64,000 nt of DNA. It comes from Acidobacteriota bacterium (GTDB lineage: Bacteria > Acidobacteriota > UBA890 > WLXD01). This document shows positions 17,082 through 38,449 of this stretch, in pieces. The notes under the pieces were generated by a model. That model had not been told where the DNA came from. It saw nothing but the letters and a program-made list of their open reading frames with translations, and ran no database searches. The position numbers and the translations under genes were made by a program. The stretch is taken from NCBI GenBank assembly GCA_012103255.1, contig WLXD01000004.1, positions 62,001-126,000 on the forward strand. The letters are read 5' to 3'. Numbering within the stretch: position 1 is the stretch's first letter; each line of letters begins with the position of its first letter.

Positions 17082-17095
17082 CAGACAAAAATCTG
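17082..17095. promoter_or_regulatory. Imperfect second LexA-like box
   Basis: CAGACA-AA-AATCTG matches the dyad at 17114-17127 in ten of the twelve arm positions. Its centre is 32 bp from the centre of that box, about three helical turns. It lies between the lexA promoter and the divergent propeller gene. It may assist cooperative LexA binding or control the propeller gene; this is inference. Confidence 0.45.
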
Positions 17096-17105
17096 GTTAG
17101 GTCTC

Positions 17106-17134
17106 TTGCGGCACAGACATTTGTCTGGTTTATT
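17106..17134 (+). promoter_or_regulatory. lexA promoter with SOS box in the spacer
   Basis: TTGCGG (17106-17111), 17 bases, TTTATT (17129-17134) is a plausible promoter. The perfect dyad CAGACA-TT-TGTCTG (17114-17127) fills its spacer. The same 15 bases ACAGACATTTGTCTG occur at the same distance from a TTGC hexamer before dnaE2 (33504-33527). A predicted start site near 17141 leaves a ~29-base leader containing AGGAG before the lexA ATG. Confidence 0.8.
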
Positions 17135-17169: not shown

Positions 17170-17868
17170 ATGACGCCGAAGACGCCCCCAGGGCAAACGC
17201 GAGAACGCGTCTATAACTTCGTTCGTGATCGCCTCCTCGCCGGCAATCCGCCCAGCGTCCGCGAAGTTCAGGAAGCGTTCAATTTCAAGGCCGTCGAGTC
17301 GGCTCGCTCGCATCTGACTGCGCTCGTCAAACAGGGGCTCCTCCTCAAAGAAGGCAACAAGGCACGGGCCTATCGCCTGCCGGACACCGTCGCCGTGGAG
17401 GACCCACCGGTTCAGGTGCCTCTCCTTGGCCGTGTTCCTGCCGGCCCTCTGAGCGAGGCCATCGAAGACGTCGAGTCCTACCTTCCGGTGCGTTCCAAGT
17501 TCCGAGGCGCAGAACTGTTCGCGCTGCGTGTTGAAGGCGACTCCATGCGTGATGCCGGCATCCTCGATGGCGACGTCGTGATCGTGCAAAAGCAACCCAA
17601 CGCAGATCCTGGCGACATCATCGTGGCCATGATCGATGGCGAAGCCACCGTAAAGACGTTGTTTGTCGAAGGGCGACGCATCGAACTGCGTCCTCAGAAT
17701 CCCGAGTACGCCCCCATCGTTCCTGATCCGACGGAATTGAGTGTTCTCGGCAAAGTGCTCGAAGTTCGTCGACACCTCGATGAGAACCCTTTCCGCACCG
17801 CGCTCACTCGCTATGGCGCATCGAGTTCAAGTGGGGCTCCTTCTGGCGGGCACGGTGCCGTTGCCTGA
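17170..17868 (+). CDS. lexA: LexA repressor (SOS regulator)
   Basis: Self-cleaving transcriptional repressor, 232 residues. Residues 1-70 are a winged-helix DNA-binding domain (TRERVYNFVRDRLLAGNPPSVREVQEAF). The S24 peptidase domain follows. The predicted cleavage bond is Ala91-Gly92 in GRVPAGPL, the catalytic Ser is S125 in EGDSMRDAG and the Lys is K162 in EATVKTLF. All three are as in LexA. A ~25-residue Ser/Gly/Ala-rich C-terminal tail is unusual. AGGAG precedes the ATG. Its stop overlaps the ATG of imuA (TGATG). The recognition helix differs enough from E. coli LexA to fit the unusual operator. Confidence 0.93.
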   Translation: MTPKTPPGQTRERVYNFVRDRLLAGNPPSVREVQEAFNFKAVESARSHLTALVKQGLLLKEGNKARAYRLPDTVAVEDPPVQVPLLGRVPAGPLSEAIEDVESYLPVRSKFRGAELFALRVEGDSMRDAGILDGDVVIVQKQPNADPGDIIVAMIDGEATVKTLFVEGRRIELRPQNPEYAPIVPDPTELSVLGKVLEVRRHLDENPFRTALTRYGASSSSGAPSGGHGAVA

Positions 17869-18536
17869 TGGCGCAGCCACTACCCATTCCGCCAGGTGTC
17901 GTCCGTGCCGTTCGGCTCGGCAACGACACCCACCTCGCCCCCGTTCCGGTTGGGTGGAATCTCGATGAACTCCGCGGTCGCCTGACCGAGATCTCTGGAC
18001 TGAGCGACAGTTCCAGTCTCACGCAGGCTTTCAGCGTTGTTCTCGATGCACAGAAGCAAGAAGAGCCGGTTGCCTGGCTCACGCGTCAGGAGAGTGCGTT
18101 CTTCCCGATTGATGCCTGGTGTAACGGAGTCGATCTCGAGGCACTCATTGTCGTGCGACTCCCCGATGAAGACGCCATTCTGCGTGCCACCGATCGCCTT
18201 GCCCGTTCAGGTGGCTTCGGGTTGCTCATTGCGGATCTGGGATCCAGCAGTGACAAGGCCACGGCACTGGGACGCGCGCAGCCGCCTGAAGTACCTATGG
18301 CATCACAGGCGCGGCTTCGCAGCATCGCCCATCGACATGACATGTCGATTGTTTTCCTGACCCGGAAAACGAAGAAACAGCCTTCACTCGGCTCACTTGT
18401 TTCACTGCGCGCCGAAGCACATCGAGCGCGTACTCCCGACGGCTACTTCTCCTGTTCCCTCAACGTTCTCAAAGATAAGTATCGCGGCCCGGGGTGGGCT
18501 CATGACGAGCTGGTGCGTGGACCCGATGGTTTGTGA
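17868..18536 (+). CDS. imuA: ImuA-like mutasome accessory protein
   Basis: 222-residue protein between lexA and imuB. It has the block order of ImuA: VAWLTRQESAFFPIDAWCNGVDLEALIVVR-like segments (about 66-100), a LARSGGFGLLIADL core and a RLRSIAHRHDMSIVFLTRK segment. These are derived from the RecA fold, but no Walker A motif is visible, so ATP binding looks lost. In characterised systems ImuA works with ImuB and DnaE2 in damage-induced mutagenesis. The start overlaps the lexA stop by one base and imuB follows after 22 bases. The identification rests on both sequence pattern and context. Confidence 0.85.
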   Translation: MAQPLPIPPGVVRAVRLGNDTHLAPVPVGWNLDELRGRLTEISGLSDSSSLTQAFSVVLDAQKQEEPVAWLTRQESAFFPIDAWCNGVDLEALIVVRLPDEDAILRATDRLARSGGFGLLIADLGSSSDKATALGRAQPPEVPMASQARLRSIAHRHDMSIVFLTRKTKKQPSLGSLVSLRAEAHRARTPDGYFSCSLNVLKDKYRGPGWAHDELVRGPDGL

Positions 18537-18558: not shown

Positions 18559-20217
18559 ATGTCCCGCACCTCCAAGCGTCCGCGTCTCTCAAAACGCGCG
18601 GCAACCTTCTATCACGCGTTGACCGGCGTCGACGCGGCACCAGTTCCACCCCAGGGCGAGAAGGGAGGCAACGGTAGGGACGGCGGCTCGCCGTCCCACG
18701 TCACTGCATCAGACGAACCGGCTTGCGAGGCCGTCAAACCGGTTGCCTGCATCGACATACCGGCATTGCCGCTGCAACTTCTGGCACAGCGACAACCTGA
18801 GTGGGCATCGGGACCGATGGCCGTGGTGGCCGAAGATCGGCCACAGGGACAGATCCTGTGGGTCAACGAAAAAGCCTACAGAGGCCGCGTTCTGCCTGGC
18901 ATGCGCTATGCCGCCGGTCTGTCGATATGTCGTGAACTGTGTGCAGCTGAAGTTCCGGAAAGTGAGATCAGCGCCGGTTCCGAGCATCTCCTGAATCTGC
19001 TGCTGCGCTTCAGTCCTTATGTGGAGCCCAACGAGGATGAGCCCGGCGTCTTCTGGATTGACGCCTCCGGACTCCTCGGCATTGAAGAGTCCCTCGAGTC
19101 ATGGGCCGACAAAGTCCGTACCGCGCTGCGAGACAACGGTTTCGTTGGACATATCGTTGTCGGCTTTCATCGCTTCAACGCATACGCGCTAGCTCGTGCA
19201 CGATGCGCGACCACTGTCTTCAGCAGTCCCTCCGACGAGAAGGCCGCCGCCCGGTCTGTTCGCTTTGATCGACTGCATCTGGACCCGAAACTGCGCGGCC
19301 ACCTCGCCCGATTGGATATCCACACCGTAGGCGACTTTCTGCAGCTCCCGATCGACGGCCTGTCGCGACGTTTCGGAAAGGCCGCGCTGGAACTACACCG
19401 GCAAGCGAGCGACGCAGCACCCGCACCGCTCGACCCGACGATCCCCCTCGACCCCTTTGAGGCCTGGATCGAACTCGAATACCCCGAACTCGACGCCTAT
19501 CGGCTCACCTTTGCCATTCAGCGGGTCCTGCCAATGTTGCTGGAACGTGTGGCTGCGCGCGGACATGGGCTTGGCGCGATGTCGATCACACTGAAACTCG
19601 ATGACCATTCGGTTCGCACCAGCGAGATCCGCACTGCCAACGCCACCCTCGACGCCGATCAGGTTCTTGAACTGGTCCGCCTCAAGCTCGAATCCACGGC
19701 GCTGGATTCGGGCGTTGTGGAGATCGATCTTTGCGTAAATTCGACAGCAATCGATAAGGGGCAGCTGGATCTGTTCGCTGAGAAGCCTCGTAGAGATCTT
19801 CCGGCTGCGGAACGCGCACTCGCCCGTGTCCGTGCCGAGTTCGGACGCCTCACGGTGGTGTTCGCCAAGCTGAAGCAGGCGCATCTGCCCGAGGCCAGTT
19901 TTTCCTGGGAACCCCTGGAGCATGCGCGTCTCCCCTCGCCCCTGCCCGTACAACAACGCTCTCTCGTACGGCGCATCTTTGACCGCCCCGTACCACTACC
20001 GGCGCGGGGCCGACACGAACCGGACGGCTGGCTCGTGCGTGGCCCCGAGCAAGGCTCCATGTCGCGCATTTCTGGTCCCTACACCGTGTCCGGTGGTTGG
20101 TGGGTGCGCGAAGTACACCGCGACTACCACTTCGTCGAAACCGCCAAGGGCGATGTCATGTGGGTCTACTACGATCGCCGACGACGTCGATGGTTTCTAC
20201 AAGGCCAGGTGGAGTAG
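18559..20217 (+). CDS. imuB: ImuB, catalytically inactive Y-family polymerase-like protein
   Basis: 552-residue Y-family polymerase homologue that acts as the hub of the ImuA/ImuB/DnaE2 mutasome. After a ~60-residue tail the palm begins with VACIDIPALPLQLL; D66 aligns with the first metal-binding Asp. The second motif reads WIDASG (D168-A169), where active polymerases have Asp-Glu, so the acidic triad is broken, as in known ImuB proteins. A helix-hairpin-helix (LDIHTVGDFLQLPIDGL) and little-finger region follow. QLDLF at 402-406 is a consensus sliding-clamp-binding motif. The C-terminal ~130 residues end with WVYYDRRRRRWFLQG, typical of ImuB. Confidence 0.92.
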   Translation: MSRTSKRPRLSKRAATFYHALTGVDAAPVPPQGEKGGNGRDGGSPSHVTASDEPACEAVKPVACIDIPALPLQLLAQRQPEWASGPMAVVAEDRPQGQILWVNEKAYRGRVLPGMRYAAGLSICRELCAAEVPESEISAGSEHLLNLLLRFSPYVEPNEDEPGVFWIDASGLLGIEESLESWADKVRTALRDNGFVGHIVVGFHRFNAYALARARCATTVFSSPSDEKAAARSVRFDRLHLDPKLRGHLARLDIHTVGDFLQLPIDGLSRRFGKAALELHRQASDAAPAPLDPTIPLDPFEAWIELEYPELDAYRLTFAIQRVLPMLLERVAARGHGLGAMSITLKLDDHSVRTSEIRTANATLDADQVLELVRLKLESTALDSGVVEIDLCVNSTAIDKGQLDLFAEKPRRDLPAAERALARVRAEFGRLTVVFAKLKQAHLPEASFSWEPLEHARLPSPLPVQQRSLVRRIFDRPVPLPARGRHEPDGWLVRGPEQGSMSRISGPYTVSGGWWVREVHRDYHFVETAKGDVMWVYYDRRRRRWFLQGQVE

Positions 20218-32866: not shown

Positions 32867-33196
32867 CTAGGCGGTCAATCCGAGCCAGAGCGCCATGGCC
32901 CGTTTGGCTCGCACGAGAACATCGTTGCCCGCATGCCCGATCGTCCGCCCCACTCGGTCGCGCGACACGGTGGTCATCTTGTCGACCATCAACTGGGATA
33001 TCGAACGGAGCCCATTGGTGGGCGTCGGCTCCAAAGTAATCCGGAACAGTGGGGCGTCAACGATGGTGCTCGTCACCGGGATCACGGTCACGCTGGCGTG
33101 CGTTTCGTTAAAATAGTCCGCCTGCACTACGAGTGCGGGGCGCGGTTTGCCGTAGTCACCGCTCACGGTGACAACGACCAGATCACCTCGTTTCAC
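32867..33196 (-). CDS. PemK/MazF-like endoribonuclease toxin
   Basis: 109-residue toxin of a type II toxin-antitoxin pair. MKRGDLVVVTVSGDYGKPRPALVVQ is the MazF/PemK opening, with the RPALVV strand. TVIPVTSTIV, LRSISQLMVDKMTTVSRDRVG and the closing helix complete the fold. MazF-type toxins cut single-stranded mRNA; the cleavage sequence cannot be predicted. The ATG overlaps the antitoxin stop by four bases (ATGA), the usual antitoxin-first order. Confidence 0.9.
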   Translation of the reverse strand: MKRGDLVVVTVSGDYGKPRPALVVQADYFNETHASVTVIPVTSTIVDAPLFRITLEPTPTNGLRSISQLMVDKMTTVSRDRVGRTIGHAGNDVLVRAKRAMALWLGLTA

Positions 33197-33417
33197 TCGG
33201 TCCAGCCTTCGATATCACGCGCAGCGTCGGCCCAATCGAGAACGTCGCGCTCGAGATTCACGTTCGCCACGGCCTCCAGACTCTGTCTCCGACACTCTCC
33301 GGCAAAGTCCGGCGCACGGGTATCAGGCACCCAGAGTTGGACCAGCCTCAGCCCCGCCCGGCGCATGCGCTCGCGATAGCGACGTACGTCTCGTGCATTC
33401 GAAGAACGTTCTGACAT
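33193..33417 (-). CDS. MazE-like (DUF3018) antitoxin
   Basis: 74-residue antitoxin. The block RRYRERMRRAGLRLVQLWVPDTRAPDFAGECRRQS is diagnostic for the MazE-like DUF3018 family; the first ~20 basic residues should bind DNA. An acidic C-terminal tail (DWADAARDIEGWTE) should wrap the toxin. The start codon lies inside the first of two palindromes, so there is no room for a normal ribosome-binding site. Translation may start from a leaderless or very short transcript. It is the first gene of the pair. Confidence 0.87.
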   Translation of the reverse strand: MSERSSNARDVRRYRERMRRAGLRLVQLWVPDTRAPDFAGECRRQSLEAVANVNLERDVLDWADAARDIEGWTE

Positions 33418-33439
33418 GTCATGAAATATGACATGTCAT
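33412..33439. promoter_or_regulatory. Twin palindromes at the toxin-antitoxin start
   Basis: TGACATGTCA (33412-33421) and ATGACATGTCAT (33428-33439) are two perfect palindromes with centres 17 bp apart. The ATG of the antitoxin (33415-33417) is inside the first. They are the probable operator for autorepression by the antitoxin or the complex. Confidence 0.75.
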
Positions 33440-33500
33440 CTTGAGAATCTCCATATCAACCAATGATGACGGGCATCCCAGATTTTTTTCGTGGTGCTTA

Positions 33501-33529
33501 TTGCTAAACAGACATTTGTCTGTTTAGAT
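33501..33529 (+). promoter_or_regulatory. dnaE2 promoter with SOS box in the spacer
   Basis: TTGCTA (33501-33506), 17 bases, TTAGAT (33524-33529). The dyad CTAAACAGACA-TT-TGTCTGTTTAG (33504-33527) is perfect over 11-bp arms and contains the same 15-base core as the lexA promoter, at the same distance from the -35 hexamer. A start near 33536 leaves a leader of about 138 bases before the dnaE2 ATG. The leader has no obvious gene. Confidence 0.85.
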
Positions 33530-33673: not shown

Positions 33674-36600
33674 ATGTCTGCTTCTGCCTATCTGGGCGGC
33701 TCGCTCGCCTACGTCCCGCTCTGGTGCAAGAGCAACTTCTCCTTCCTCGAAGGCGCCAGCGACCCTGCTGAGCTGGTCGAGGAAGCGCGTCACCTGGGGC
33801 TACGGTCGATCGCCATCACCGACCGGGACGGTGTGCACGGCATCGTGCAGGCGCATGTACGGGCCGAAGAGCTGGGAATCCATCTGATCGTGGGCTCCCA
33901 GATCACCGTGCAGGACAATTCGGTGATCACGCTGCTGGTGACAAGCCGGGAGGGCTACTCCAACCTCTGTCGCCTCGTAACCAAGGGGCGGCTCCGCAAT
34001 GCCAAGGGCGAATGCAGCGTCACCTGGCACGAGATCGCCGAACACGCCGGCGGGCTCATCGCACTATGGGGTGGTGATCGTAGTCTGCTGACTCAATCGA
34101 TCGATGAAGTCTCGCCTTTCTCCGGCAGGCTGGTCGATCCCTATTCCGTCGAGTCATCGTTCACTCCAGGCATGCGTTTCGGTGCTGGAGCACACCTGGA
34201 CAGTTCCCCTTCCGGCGAAGGTGCCGCGCTGCCTCCTACCTCCACGGAAGTGGCGGCTGCTCACGTCGTTGACCTGTTCGAATTCAGTGCGGCACGCGAA
34301 CCACGAACACTCGAAGAGGTCGCCGACCTTCTACGCGAAGCCTTCGGGCCGCGCCTGTTTGCAATGGCTACCCGCCATTACCGCGCCGATGAACCTGCAA
34401 TGGAACGTCGTCTCCGCGCCCGCGCTCAACGCTTCGGCCTCTCCGTTGTGGCAAGCGCCGAGGTGCTCTACCACGTGCCGGCGCGTCGCGATGCGCACGA
34501 TGTCCTCAATTGCATCCGTCACGGCACCCAGGTGCCCAGCGCCGGCCGCTGCATCAAAGGCAACGCCGAGCACGCGCTGCATTCGCCCCAGACTTTTGCG
34601 TCGCTCTTCTCTGACGATCCGCTTGCCGTAGCACGCACCCGCGAGATCGCCGAGATGTGCACCTTCTCCATGCGTGAACTGCGCTATCGCTATCCGTCCG
34701 AACAGCTGCCCGACGGCACCTCATCCATGCAGCACCTACGCGATCTGACCTGGGACGGGGCCCGGAAGCGCTATCGCGACAACCCCGGCCCGGATGGTGC
34801 CCGCGGACATGTCCCGTCTGCGGTTCGACAACAGATCGAGAAAGAACTCGGCGTCATTGACGACCTCGACTACCCCGGGTACTTCCTCACCATGCGCGAG
34901 ATCGTGCGCTTCTGTCAGGAAAAGAACATCCTCTGCCAGGGGCGCGGCTCCGCGGCCAACTCGATCGTCTGTTTCTGCCTCGAGATCACCGCGATCGACC
35001 CCGTGCGCATGGATCTTTTGTTCGAGCGCTTCATCTCGAAGGAACGCGCCGAGCCCCCGGATATCGATCTCGATATCGAGCACGACCGGCGCGAAGAAGC
35101 GATCCAGCACATGTACACCAAGTACGGTCGCTCGCATGCGGCCATGGTGGCCAACGTCATCCGCTACCGCGGCAAATCGTCCGTGCGCGACGTCGGCAAG
35201 GCCCTGGGGCTTTCGGAAACATCGCTCGATCGACTCTCCAAACTCGCGGGACGCTGGGGCGGGCTCGATGAGAAGACCTTGCGCTCTGCAGGGCTCGATC
35301 CGCACAACCCGACCATCAGTCACCTGGTGCGCCTGTCCAACGAGATCAGCGGGTTCCCCCGCCACCTCTCGATCCATCCGGGAGGGTTCCTGCTCGGTCA
35401 CGAACCCGTGCACGACCTCGTTCCCATCGAGAACGGCGCCATGGAGAACCGCACTGTCATTCAGTGGGACAAGGATGACGTCGAAGCTCTCGGCCTCTTC
35501 AAGGTCGACCTGCTCGGCCTTGGGGCCCTCACCCAACTCCACAAGGGCTTCGACATGCTACGTGAACACCGCGGCATCGAACTCGACATGGCCACCGTGC
35601 CTCATGACGACGAAGCCACCTTCGACATGTGCTGCGAGGCCGATACGGTCGGCGTCTTCCAGATCGAGAGTCGGGCGCAGATGTCGATGCTGCCGCGTCT
35701 GAAGCCGCGCAATTTCTACGACATGGTCGTGGAAATCTCGATCGTGCGACCGGGGCCGATCACCGGCGGCATGGTGCACCCCTACCTGCGCCGACGAAAT
35801 GGCGAAGAGCCCATCGAGTACCCACACGAGTGCCTCGAGCCGGTTCTCAAAAAAACGCTGGGAGTTCCCCTGTTCCAGGAGCAGGTGATGAAGCTCGCCG
35901 TCGTCGCCGCCGACTACACGCCAGGCGAAGCCGATCAGCTACGCCGCGACATGGCCGCCTGGAAAAAGACGGGCCGGCTCGAACGTCATCGCGACCGTCT
36001 CATCTCACGGATGATGAAAAAGGGTATCGAGGCCGAGTTCGCTGAACGCGTATTCGAGCAGATCCGTGGCTTCGGCGACTACGGCTTTCCTGAGTGCGTC
36101 AGCGGCAACACCCAGATCATTGATGCTGACACCGGACGCCTGGTCGCCATACGCGATCTCGTGGAGGGCGACGCCCAGGTCACTCATACACTCACCTGCA
36201 GCTCCGATCTCCAGATCGAGCCGCGGCAAGTTCTGTCCGCCAAACCCAGTGGGCGAAAACCGGTGTATCGGCTCCGGACTGCACTCGGTCATGTTCTCGA
36301 CGCGACGGCAGAACACCCGCTCCTCACGGTTTCCGGATGGCAGAAGCTCGGAGAGCTTCAGGTCGGGGACGCGGTCGCAGTGGCCCGGTCCCTACCGACC
36401 ACCGGCATCAAGCGATGGCCCCGCTACAAGATCGTCGTTCTCGCTGACCTGATTACCGAGGGCAACCTGTGCCACCCCTCCACCTGTTACTTCTACACAA
36501 CGGATGCAGCCCACCGCGACGAATACATCCGGTGTGTCGAACAGTTCGCAAATACCGAGGCAGTTCTGGCTCTGCATCGTGCGTGTTTCAGCATTCATGT

Positions 36601-38449
36601 TCGTCGCAAGAACCGGCAACGGTTGTCTGGCCTGGTGCGCTGGTTACGCGATCTCGGCATGTGGAATGTTGGAGCCAGGCACAAAGAGCTTCCCCCGGAG
36701 GTCTTTGAACTCGCGCCGAGCTGTATCGGGCTGCTGCTCGCACGAATGTGGGAAGGCGATGGACATGTTTCGACCAGCAGTCGGCATGCGGATTACGACA
36801 CCTCGTCGCGAAAACTCGCGCACCAGGTTCAACACCTACTGCTGCGACTCGGCGTCGTAGCCAGAATCTACGAGCGTCAGCGAGACTATCGTGGCGAGCC
36901 GAATACCAGCTATGTCGTAACTGTCACCGGAGCGGCGCTCGCCTCGTTCTACAAACAGATCGGGCAACGGTTCCTCAATAAGCGCAAGCGCGCCCGCGCA
37001 CACGACTTACGGGAAACTTCGTTGATGTCCTCGAAGGACGTCATCCCTGTTGCCGTTACTGACCTGATCCGTCGCGAGCGCGATCGGCACGGTGTTACCT
37101 GGCGTGAAATCGGAAGGGCGACTTCGCTCGGCATGCGAGAGATCCAGGCTCGGCAACATGACACCAAACTAGGCTTCCGTCGCTGGGTGATCGATCGCCT
37201 CGGCGGCTATCTCCAATCCGGTGAACTCAAAGCGCTCGCTAATTCAGATCTCTACTGGGATCGTATTGTCTCCATCGAAGCGATGGGTTCGCAGATGACG
37301 TACGACCTAGAGATCGAGGGCAATCACAATTTTCTTGCCAACGATTTCGTGGTTCACAATTCGCATGCGGCAAGCTTTTCGCTGATCGCCTATGCGACAT
37401 CGTGGTTGAAGTGTCACTACCCCGCCGAGTTCGCCTGCTCGTTGCTCAACTCGCAGCCCATGGGGTTCTACTCGGCTGCCACTATTGTCGATGACGCCAA
37501 GCGCCATCATGTCGAGGTGCGGCCCGTCAGTGTTCGAGCGCCGTGGTGGGACTGCGTGCTGGAAACGACAAAGATGGACGCGCAGCACGCCAGTGTTGTC
37601 GAGGACGAATTCGACGGGGCGGCGGCGTTGGCGCATCTCGAAGATCGCCTCACGACGCCGACTATTGCGCGCGGGCCCGGGGACCCGACTCCGGCGCTGT
37701 CTCCTGCGCGGGGTCTCGCCGTTCGGATGGGACTCCGCTACGTGCGTGGACTCCGCACCGACGAAGGCGAGCGCATCGAGACAGCCGCACGCGAAGCGCC
37801 TTTCACGTCCATCAACGATTTCCGACAGCGCGTGAAGCTCTCTGAGCGTTCGCTGCGACGGATTACCGAAGCTGGGTTCTTCGAACCTTTCGAATCCTCG
37901 CGACGAGGGGCCCTCTGGCAGGTACATGGCCTGGTCGCCGAGAGTCCCGAGCCCGAACTGCAGGCCGTCGACCAAACCTCGACATCGGCTACCGAGTTCA
38001 CTGATGGTGCTGCGCCGCAGTTCACAGAGCTCAACAGCTACGAGCAGATCAACTGGGACTACCGCACGGCCGATCACTCTGCCCGGGGTCATATTCTCGA
38101 GCCGCTACGTTCGCAGCTGCAGCAAATGGGCCTTCCTGATGCCGAAACCATTAGCCGCATGCGTGACGGATCACGAGCCTCCTATGCGGGCATCGTGATC
38201 TGTCGCCAGCGCCCGGGCACTGCATCGGGTGTGGTCTTCATGACTCTCGAAGACGAGTCGGGTTTCGTGAACCTCGTACTCTGGCCCGACGTCTTCGAGA
38301 AATTCGGTGTGATCGGTCGCACCACGTCTTTCCTCGGAGTCACCGGCAAGGTCCAGGCCCAGGATTCCGTAGTCCACATCGTTGTCGATATGCTCTGGCA
38401 GCCTGAGCTTCGACTGAACCACGAGCGTCGCAGTCGCGACTTTCACTGA
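33674..38449 (+). CDS. dnaE2: Error-prone DNA polymerase III alpha (DnaE2) with in-frame intein
   Basis: 1591-residue precursor of the damage-induced polymerase that partners ImuA/ImuB. I start at the ATG at 33674 (MSASAYLGG); the frame from 33491 runs through the SOS box. The N-extein (1-807) has the PHP domain (LGLRSIAITDRDGVHGIVQAH), the C-family active site with QGRGSAANSIVCF and PDIDLDIEHD (about 460-470), and FQIESRAQMSML. Residues 808-1229 are an intein. The C-extein (1230-1591) resumes with SHAASFSLIAYATSWLKCHYP and ends with an OB-fold (GVVFMTLEDESGFVNLVLWP), the DnaE2 hallmark. Without the intein it is 1169 residues, slightly longer than usual. It is separated from lexA-imuAB by about 13 kb. 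Confidence 0.95.
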   Translation: MSASAYLGGSLAYVPLWCKSNFSFLEGASDPAELVEEARHLGLRSIAITDRDGVHGIVQAHVRAEELGIHLIVGSQITVQDNSVITLLVTSREGYSNLCRLVTKGRLRNAKGECSVTWHEIAEHAGGLIALWGGDRSLLTQSIDEVSPFSGRLVDPYSVESSFTPGMRFGAGAHLDSSPSGEGAALPPTSTEVAAAHVVDLFEFSAAREPRTLEEVADLLREAFGPRLFAMATRHYRADEPAMERRLRARAQRFGLSVVASAEVLYHVPARRDAHDVLNCIRHGTQVPSAGRCIKGNAEHALHSPQTFASLFSDDPLAVARTREIAEMCTFSMRELRYRYPSEQLPDGTSSMQHLRDLTWDGARKRYRDNPGPDGARGHVPSAVRQQIEKELGVIDDLDYPGYFLTMREIVRFCQEKNILCQGRGSAANSIVCFCLEITAIDPVRMDLLFERFISKERAEPPDIDLDIEHDRREEAIQHMYTKYGRSHAAMVANVIRYRGKSSVRDVGKALGLSETSLDRLSKLAGRWGGLDEKTLRSAGLDPHNPTISHLVRLSNEISGFPRHLSIHPGGFLLGHEPVHDLVPIENGAMENRTVIQWDKDDVEALGLFKVDLLGLGALTQLHKGFDMLREHRGIELDMATVPHDDEATFDMCCEADTVGVFQIESRAQMSMLPRLKPRNFYDMVVEISIVRPGPITGGMVHPYLRRRNGEEPIEYPHECLEPVLKKTLGVPLFQEQVMKLAVVAADYTPGEADQLRRDMAAWKKTGRLERHRDRLISRMMKKGIEAEFAERVFEQIRGFGDYGFPECVSGNTQIIDADTGRLVAIRDLVEGDAQVTHTLTCSSDLQIEPRQVLSAKPSGRKPVYRLRTALGHVLDATAEHPLLTVSGWQKLGELQVGDAVAVARSLPTTGIKRWPRYKIVVLADLITEGNLCHPSTCYFYTTDAAHRDEYIRCVEQFANTEAVLALHRACFSIHVRRKNRQRLSGLVRWLRDLGMWNVGARHKELPPEVFELAPSCIGLLLARMWEGDGHVSTSSRHADYDTSSRKLAHQVQHLLLRLGVVARIYERQRDYRGEPNTSYVVTVTGAALASFYKQIGQRFLNKRKRARAHDLRETSLMSSKDVIPVAVTDLIRRERDRHGVTWREIGRATSLGMREIQARQHDTKLGFRRWVIDRLGGYLQSGELKALANSDLYWDRIVSIEAMGSQMTYDLEIEGNHNFLANDFVVHNSHAASFSLIAYATSWLKCHYPAEFACSLLNSQPMGFYSAATIVDDAKRHHVEVRPVSVRAPWWDCVLETTKMDAQHASVVEDEFDGAAALAHLEDRLTTPTIARGPGDPTPALSPARGLAVRMGLRYVRGLRTDEGERIETAAREAPFTSINDFRQRVKLSERSLRRITEAGFFEPFESSRRGALWQVHGLVAESPEPELQAVDQTSTSATEFTDGAAPQFTELNSYEQINWDYRTADHSARGHILEPLRSQLQQMGLPDAETISRMRDGSRASYAGIVICRQRPGTASGVVFMTLEDESGFVNLVLWPDVFEKFGVIGRTTSFLGVTGKVQAQDSVVHIVVDMLWQPELRLNHERRSRDFH
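36095..37360 (+). mobile_element. DnaE2 intein with LAGLIDADG homing endonuclease
   Basis: A 422-residue, in-frame protein intron inserted between Glu and Ser of the DnaE sequence YGFPE/SHAASF. It starts with Cys (CVSGNTQIIDADTG, block A). Block B has T71-x2-H74 in DATAEHPLL. It ends YDLEIEGNHNFLANDF, then VVHN, followed by Ser, the nucleophile of the second step. Between the splicing blocks lies a DOD endonuclease: ADLITEG (E122) and WEGDG (E220, D222) are the paired LAGLIDADG helices with their acidic residues kept. About 150 further residues (TWREIGRATSLG and neighbours) may be a DNA-recognition domain. All splicing residues are present, so it looks active. Confidence 0.95.

Follow-up and report, generated by a model that had tools for sequence, protein, structure and literature searches.

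We propose, with high confidence, that the LexA protein encoded at positions 17170–17868 of a 64-kb window (the whole stretch of DNA analysed) from the genome of an uncultured Acidobacteriota bacterium has as its operator the inverted repeat CAGACA-N2-TGTCTG, through which this repressor would control both lexA-imuA-imuB and dnaE2. LexA is the textbook example of evolutionary change in a regulator's DNA target, and the operator described here very probably belongs to a diverged, cassette-linked form of the protein. A sequence-only reading of the window had put forward a candidate LexA box common to lexA and dnaE2, and comparative genomics now supports that candidate; from the same comparisons we infer LexA binding, repression and damage induction at the box. 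In the mechanism that we suggest, a LexA dimer would bind the dyad, which takes up the interval from the −35 to the −10 hexamer, and shut RNA polymerase out, thereby repressing its own operon, lexA-imuA-imuB, together with the separate dnaE2. DNA damage would give rise to RecA filaments and these to LexA self-cleavage (Ala91–Gly92, Ser125/Lys162), whereupon the three-part mutagenesis machine would be made together. A single operator would, in most relatives, serve a contiguous lexA-imuA-imuB-dnaE2 cassette; in the window's genus, dnaE2, lying 16 kb off, would be kept in step by its own operator copy.

Two identical boxes before mutagenesis genes

The window carries lexA, imuA and imuB together, with dnaE2 16 kb away, all on the plus strand. 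Domain and curated model searches identify lexA (17170–17868) as encoding a 232-residue protein with a winged-helix domain (recognition segment FKAVESARSHL), in which the S24 and LexA DNA-binding domains, the Ala91–Gly92 cleavage site, Ser125 and Lys162 are all present. It passes TIGR00498 with 163.7 bits (cut-off, 110.95), and the cleavage site and Ser/Lys dyad are invariant across ten aligned relatives. Domain searches place after it an imuA-like gene of the RecA fold (17868–18536), overlapping the lexA stop and recognisable as an open reading frame in many relatives, and an imuB-like gene encoding a Y-family polymerase homologue (18559–20217). The error-prone polymerase gene dnaE2 (imuC; 33677–38449) was identified in the same way, and its product passes PRK05672. 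The earlier assignment of both boxes to genes of the mutasome is thus borne out by the gene calls.

The DnaE2 protein contains an intein with a LAGLIDADG domain at about residues 807–1232; the DnaE2 frame of the related genome G003 (1147 residues) seems too short to accommodate this intein. Divergent from dnaE2, on the minus strand at 32867–33417, lies a small gene pair resembling, by eye, a MazE/MazF-type toxin–antitoxin; the promoter of the pair carries the repeat TGACATGTCATGAAATATGACATGTCA (about 33415–33441).

The 14-mer CAGACATTTGTCTG is found in identical copies at 17114–17127, before lexA, and at 33509–33522, before dnaE2; the 15 bases originally reported, ACAGACATTTGTCTG (17113–17127 and 33509–33523), read correctly, give or take the leading A. 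A scan of the 64-kb window returned these two exact CAGACA-N2-TGTCTG sites, and 100 shuffles returned none. The putative operator of dnaE2 extends, as had been claimed, to a perfect dyad with 11-bp arms, CTAAACAGACA-TT-TGTCTGTTTAG, at 33504–33527. The impression that the window holds only two sites is right for exact sites and overlooks an imperfect second box in the lexA promoter, CAGACAAAAATCTG, at 17082–17095, which lies upstream of the main box by 32 bp, or roughly three turns of the helix; the sister genome G001 has CAGACAAAAAACTG at the matching place. The putative operator would thus be common to these SOS genes, reaching imuA-imuB through the operon and dnaE2 through its own copy.

The box occupies the promoter spacer

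In the lexA promoter, the sequence and the TTG position in aligned sites indicate a −35 hexamer TTGCGG at 17106–17111 (plus strand), and the conservation of T residues in a pile-up of 28 sites across genomes indicates a −10 hexamer TTTATT at 17129–17134 (plus strand). The corresponding −35 hexamer of dnaE2 is TTGCTA (33501–33506, plus strand), as judged from the sequence and the pile-up. TTGC begins 8 bp before the box in both promoters (17106 and 33501), the equal spacing noticed at the outset. Of the 28 aligned sites, 16 have a TTG beginning at position −8 from the box and 6 more have it at −9 or −7; a −10 element like TAtnnT begins 1 bp after the box, with its first T in 28/28 and its last in 27/28. 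On these positions in the pile-up, the box fills the −35/−10 spacer, where the first reading had located it, and by that position overlaps the RNA polymerase site. A simple sigma-70 promoter scan brought neither of the two window promoters to threshold, so the promoter reading rests on cross-genome comparison.

The box follows one LexA subfamily

Among 396 Acidobacteriota genomes, the LexA subfamily occurs in 24, clearly set apart from the other LexAs (E < 1e-80 versus 1e-50); adding the incomplete close relatives G002 and G003 gives a lineage of 26 genomes. These hold 16 exact sites, all of them before lexA (10), dnaE2 (3) or a gene for a glyoxalase-fold (VOC) protein (3), versus 1.1 expected at the outside rate. 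The other 370 genomes also hold 16 exact sites, none before lexA (genomes with a site, lineage versus rest: Fisher p = 5e-10). A recognisable dyad, exact or altered, is present in 22 of the 24 lexA promoters of the subfamily; of the remaining two, G050 retains a single half and G254 has a weak version. The relatives' promoters, in which absence of the motif would have spoken against a LexA operator, carry the box before lexA in G004, G007, G010, G030, G054, G222, G297, G318 and G321, and with one mismatch in G001, and before dnaE2 in G001 and G003. The closest relative in a scan of named genomes, which matches exact short peptides and is not exhaustive, is the Acidobacteriota isolate OFTM137 (91%), followed by matches of 45% or less.

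A search for the box upstream of recA had been suggested along with the original candidate. In 19 recA promoters nothing convincing emerged, the best match being 10/12 and confined to G050, and recA was rejected as a target. Control of recA by LexA is usual but not universal, and its lack of a box is therefore indecisive for the identity of the operator.

Within the lineage, the third base of the half-site appears to follow the LexA recognition helix. It is G (CAGACA) with all 15 LexAs of the V[EQ]SAR type and T (CATACA, CGTACA, AATACA) with all five of the P[QM]TAR type, and is mixed with the four VQTAR proteins; this pattern follows the tree and offers one or two independent pairs, too few for a significance test.

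Short, perfect promoter dyads are typical of many repressors, and a different protein (of the TetR, MarR or phage type) might bind this one and happen to regulate the same cassette. We regard this as very unlikely: the dyad keeps to a single LexA subfamily in eight families and is missing upstream of other LexAs, its third half-site base varies with the LexA helix, and it precedes lexA even where it is found nowhere else in the genome. Less probable still, to the point of being negligible, is that the dyad works as an RNA or terminator hairpin, as which a loose scan flagged the lexA copy; the dnaE2 copy is unflagged, the stem is short and its position relative to the −10 is fixed. Moreover, lying between the promoter hexamers, the dyad would not be transcribed from its own promoter.

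Comparison with known LexA operators

The sequence-only reading held that the box fits none of three known consensuses, and none of them is matched. Relative to the E. coli box, CTGT-N8-ACAG, the half-sites stand in opposite order; the alphaproteobacterial box, GTTC-N7-GTTC, is a direct repeat, whereas the window box is inverted. Within the same phylum, a LexA operator was reportedly described for Acidobacterium capsulatum (Mazon 2006, cited in PMC3323433), the title saying that an alphaproteobacterial lexA was acquired; judged from that title, its box is apparently the direct repeat GTTC-N7-GTTC. The cyanobacterial box is RGTAC-N3-DGTWC, from which the window's own box differs (AGAC, not GTAC); two members of the subfamily, G144 and G160, have CGTACATTTGTACG, near the cyanobacterial form, which we treat as a lead only.

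The Gram-positive box is given as GAAC-N4-GTTC in PMC3323433, a consensus from which the window's AGAC-N4-GTCT departs; the best match to it in the window's lexA promoter is 5/8. The two nonetheless have a common register, NNAC-N4-GTNN, and differ in the two outer bases of each half-site (GAAC to AGAC). A canonical-type LexA in the same order (genome G006) has GAACAAATGTTC. Because all the boxes compared have the frame NNAC-N4-GTNN, the window box is not unrelated to the Gram-positive form, and to this extent the claimed misfit needs qualification.

CAGACA-N2-TGTCTG is not among the LexA motifs given in the parts of PMC8565304 and PMC3323433 compared, and an earlier mention elsewhere is possible; as far as that literature goes, the description of the box as new stands.

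Further sites in the genome

A search of the window's whole genome (4.8 Mb, nine contigs) found only three exact sites, all in promoters: those of lexA-imuA-imuB, dnaE2 and the VOC gene, the last at C6:415629. Six further sites have one mismatch, against about ten expected by chance from base counts, and are therefore leads only. Three of them are in coding DNA and were treated as chance (L005, L006, L007); the other three occupy promoter-like gaps, one upstream of a UG4-type reverse transcriptase locus, one in the interval between hemW and the gene of a UvrD-like helicase, and one upstream of a radical SAM gene of the PA0069 family. An extension compatible with our main explanation is that the LexA network has grown beyond mutagenesis to control the VOC, UvrD-like helicase/hemW, radical SAM and reverse transcriptase genes as well. 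In its favour, the VOC gene has an exact site, which all three genomes of the genus retain, and the rest are in promoter-like gaps; the chance expectation tells against those others, and conservation lends the UvrD-like and radical SAM candidates no support: the G007 orthologue of the UvrD-like gene is boxless, and the radical SAM gene has no orthologue in five relatives. We hold this wider network to be possible, though somewhat doubtful.

The UG4-type reverse transcriptase gene (L241:2985–4354; C1:716984–718353 of the genome) has a small upstream open reading frame, and its promoter holds two near-boxes at a distance of 21 bp from each other; another copy of the gene (L242:3223–4173) is without near-boxes. 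Small open reading frames ending GPGN(..)GAS form a repeated small-peptide family (L241:4379–4699, minus strand; L007:411–623; L233:8299–8523), and two of the three adjoin UG4 reverse transcriptase copies.

Cassette architecture and LexA paralogues

In 13 relatives, a single contig carries lexA and dnaE2 at a distance of 2–6 kb. The window's genus and family (its own genome, G001 and G003) have a detached dnaE2 preceded by an exact box of its own; G254, of another family, also has a detached dnaE2, with CGTACATTTGTCTG and then a −10 before it. The cassette appears to be the only LexA target in most relatives of the lineage, and PMC3323433 states that it can be the sole LexA target in a genome. 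In Pseudomonas putida and relatives, a second LexA, diverged and with a separate regulon, stands at the head of lexA2-imuA-imuB-dnaE2 (imuC) and controls it (PMC3901139). The likeness is that of a diverged LexA heading a mutagenesis cassette; the differences are in the operator, in dnaE2, which in the window's genome stands apart under a putative operator of its own, and in that genome's remaining LexA paralogues, which have lost the catalytic residues.

One of these, a full-length LexA (C7:205899–206450; L232:1364–1984), passes the LexA model with 153.1 bits; aligned by eye, it lacks the catalytic Ser and Lys, as do the paralogues of G001, G002 and G003. In a neighbouring family (G004, G005 and G007), the older LexA keeps the Ser and has Arg at the Lys position (also by eye). 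Because the older paralogue has lost the catalytic serine and lysine, the cassette LexA is the only cleavable LexA found in the genus. A further LexA-like protein (C7:274365; L234:1210–1827) is also without Ser/Lys, and both C7 proteins are possibly uncleavable repressors, to judge from their residues. Also on C7, 7 kb after recA, an open reading frame with no ATG start (L233:9779–10039) encodes a LexA-type DNA-binding domain only, with a similar recognition segment, SIESARHHL, and adjoins an apparent truncated DNA methyltransferase; possible readings are a decoy repressor derived from a mobile element and a remnant.

According to PMC8565304, lexA duplications accompany motif change, and once the primary gene is lost a diverged copy may take the network over again. 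The lineage looks like such a case. Tentatively, at rather less than even likelihood, the ancestral LexA would have become uncleavable in this order, leaving the cassette LexA as the sole damage-responsive repressor, which would now be starting to recruit genes such as the VOC gene.

Discussion

The only Acidobacteriota box named in the portions of the literature compared appears to be of a different kind, and the motif described here is usable for finding damage-induced mutagenesis genes in this phylum. The boxes CAGACA, CATACA and CGTACA form a graded series at one promoter position, alongside changes in two or three residues of the recognition helix, and the change in specificity is therefore testable residue by residue. 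If the cassette LexA has indeed become the sole damage-responsive repressor in the order, the lineage would capture, in nature, a moment of the takeover that has been proposed, in which a diverged duplicate gains control of an SOS network.
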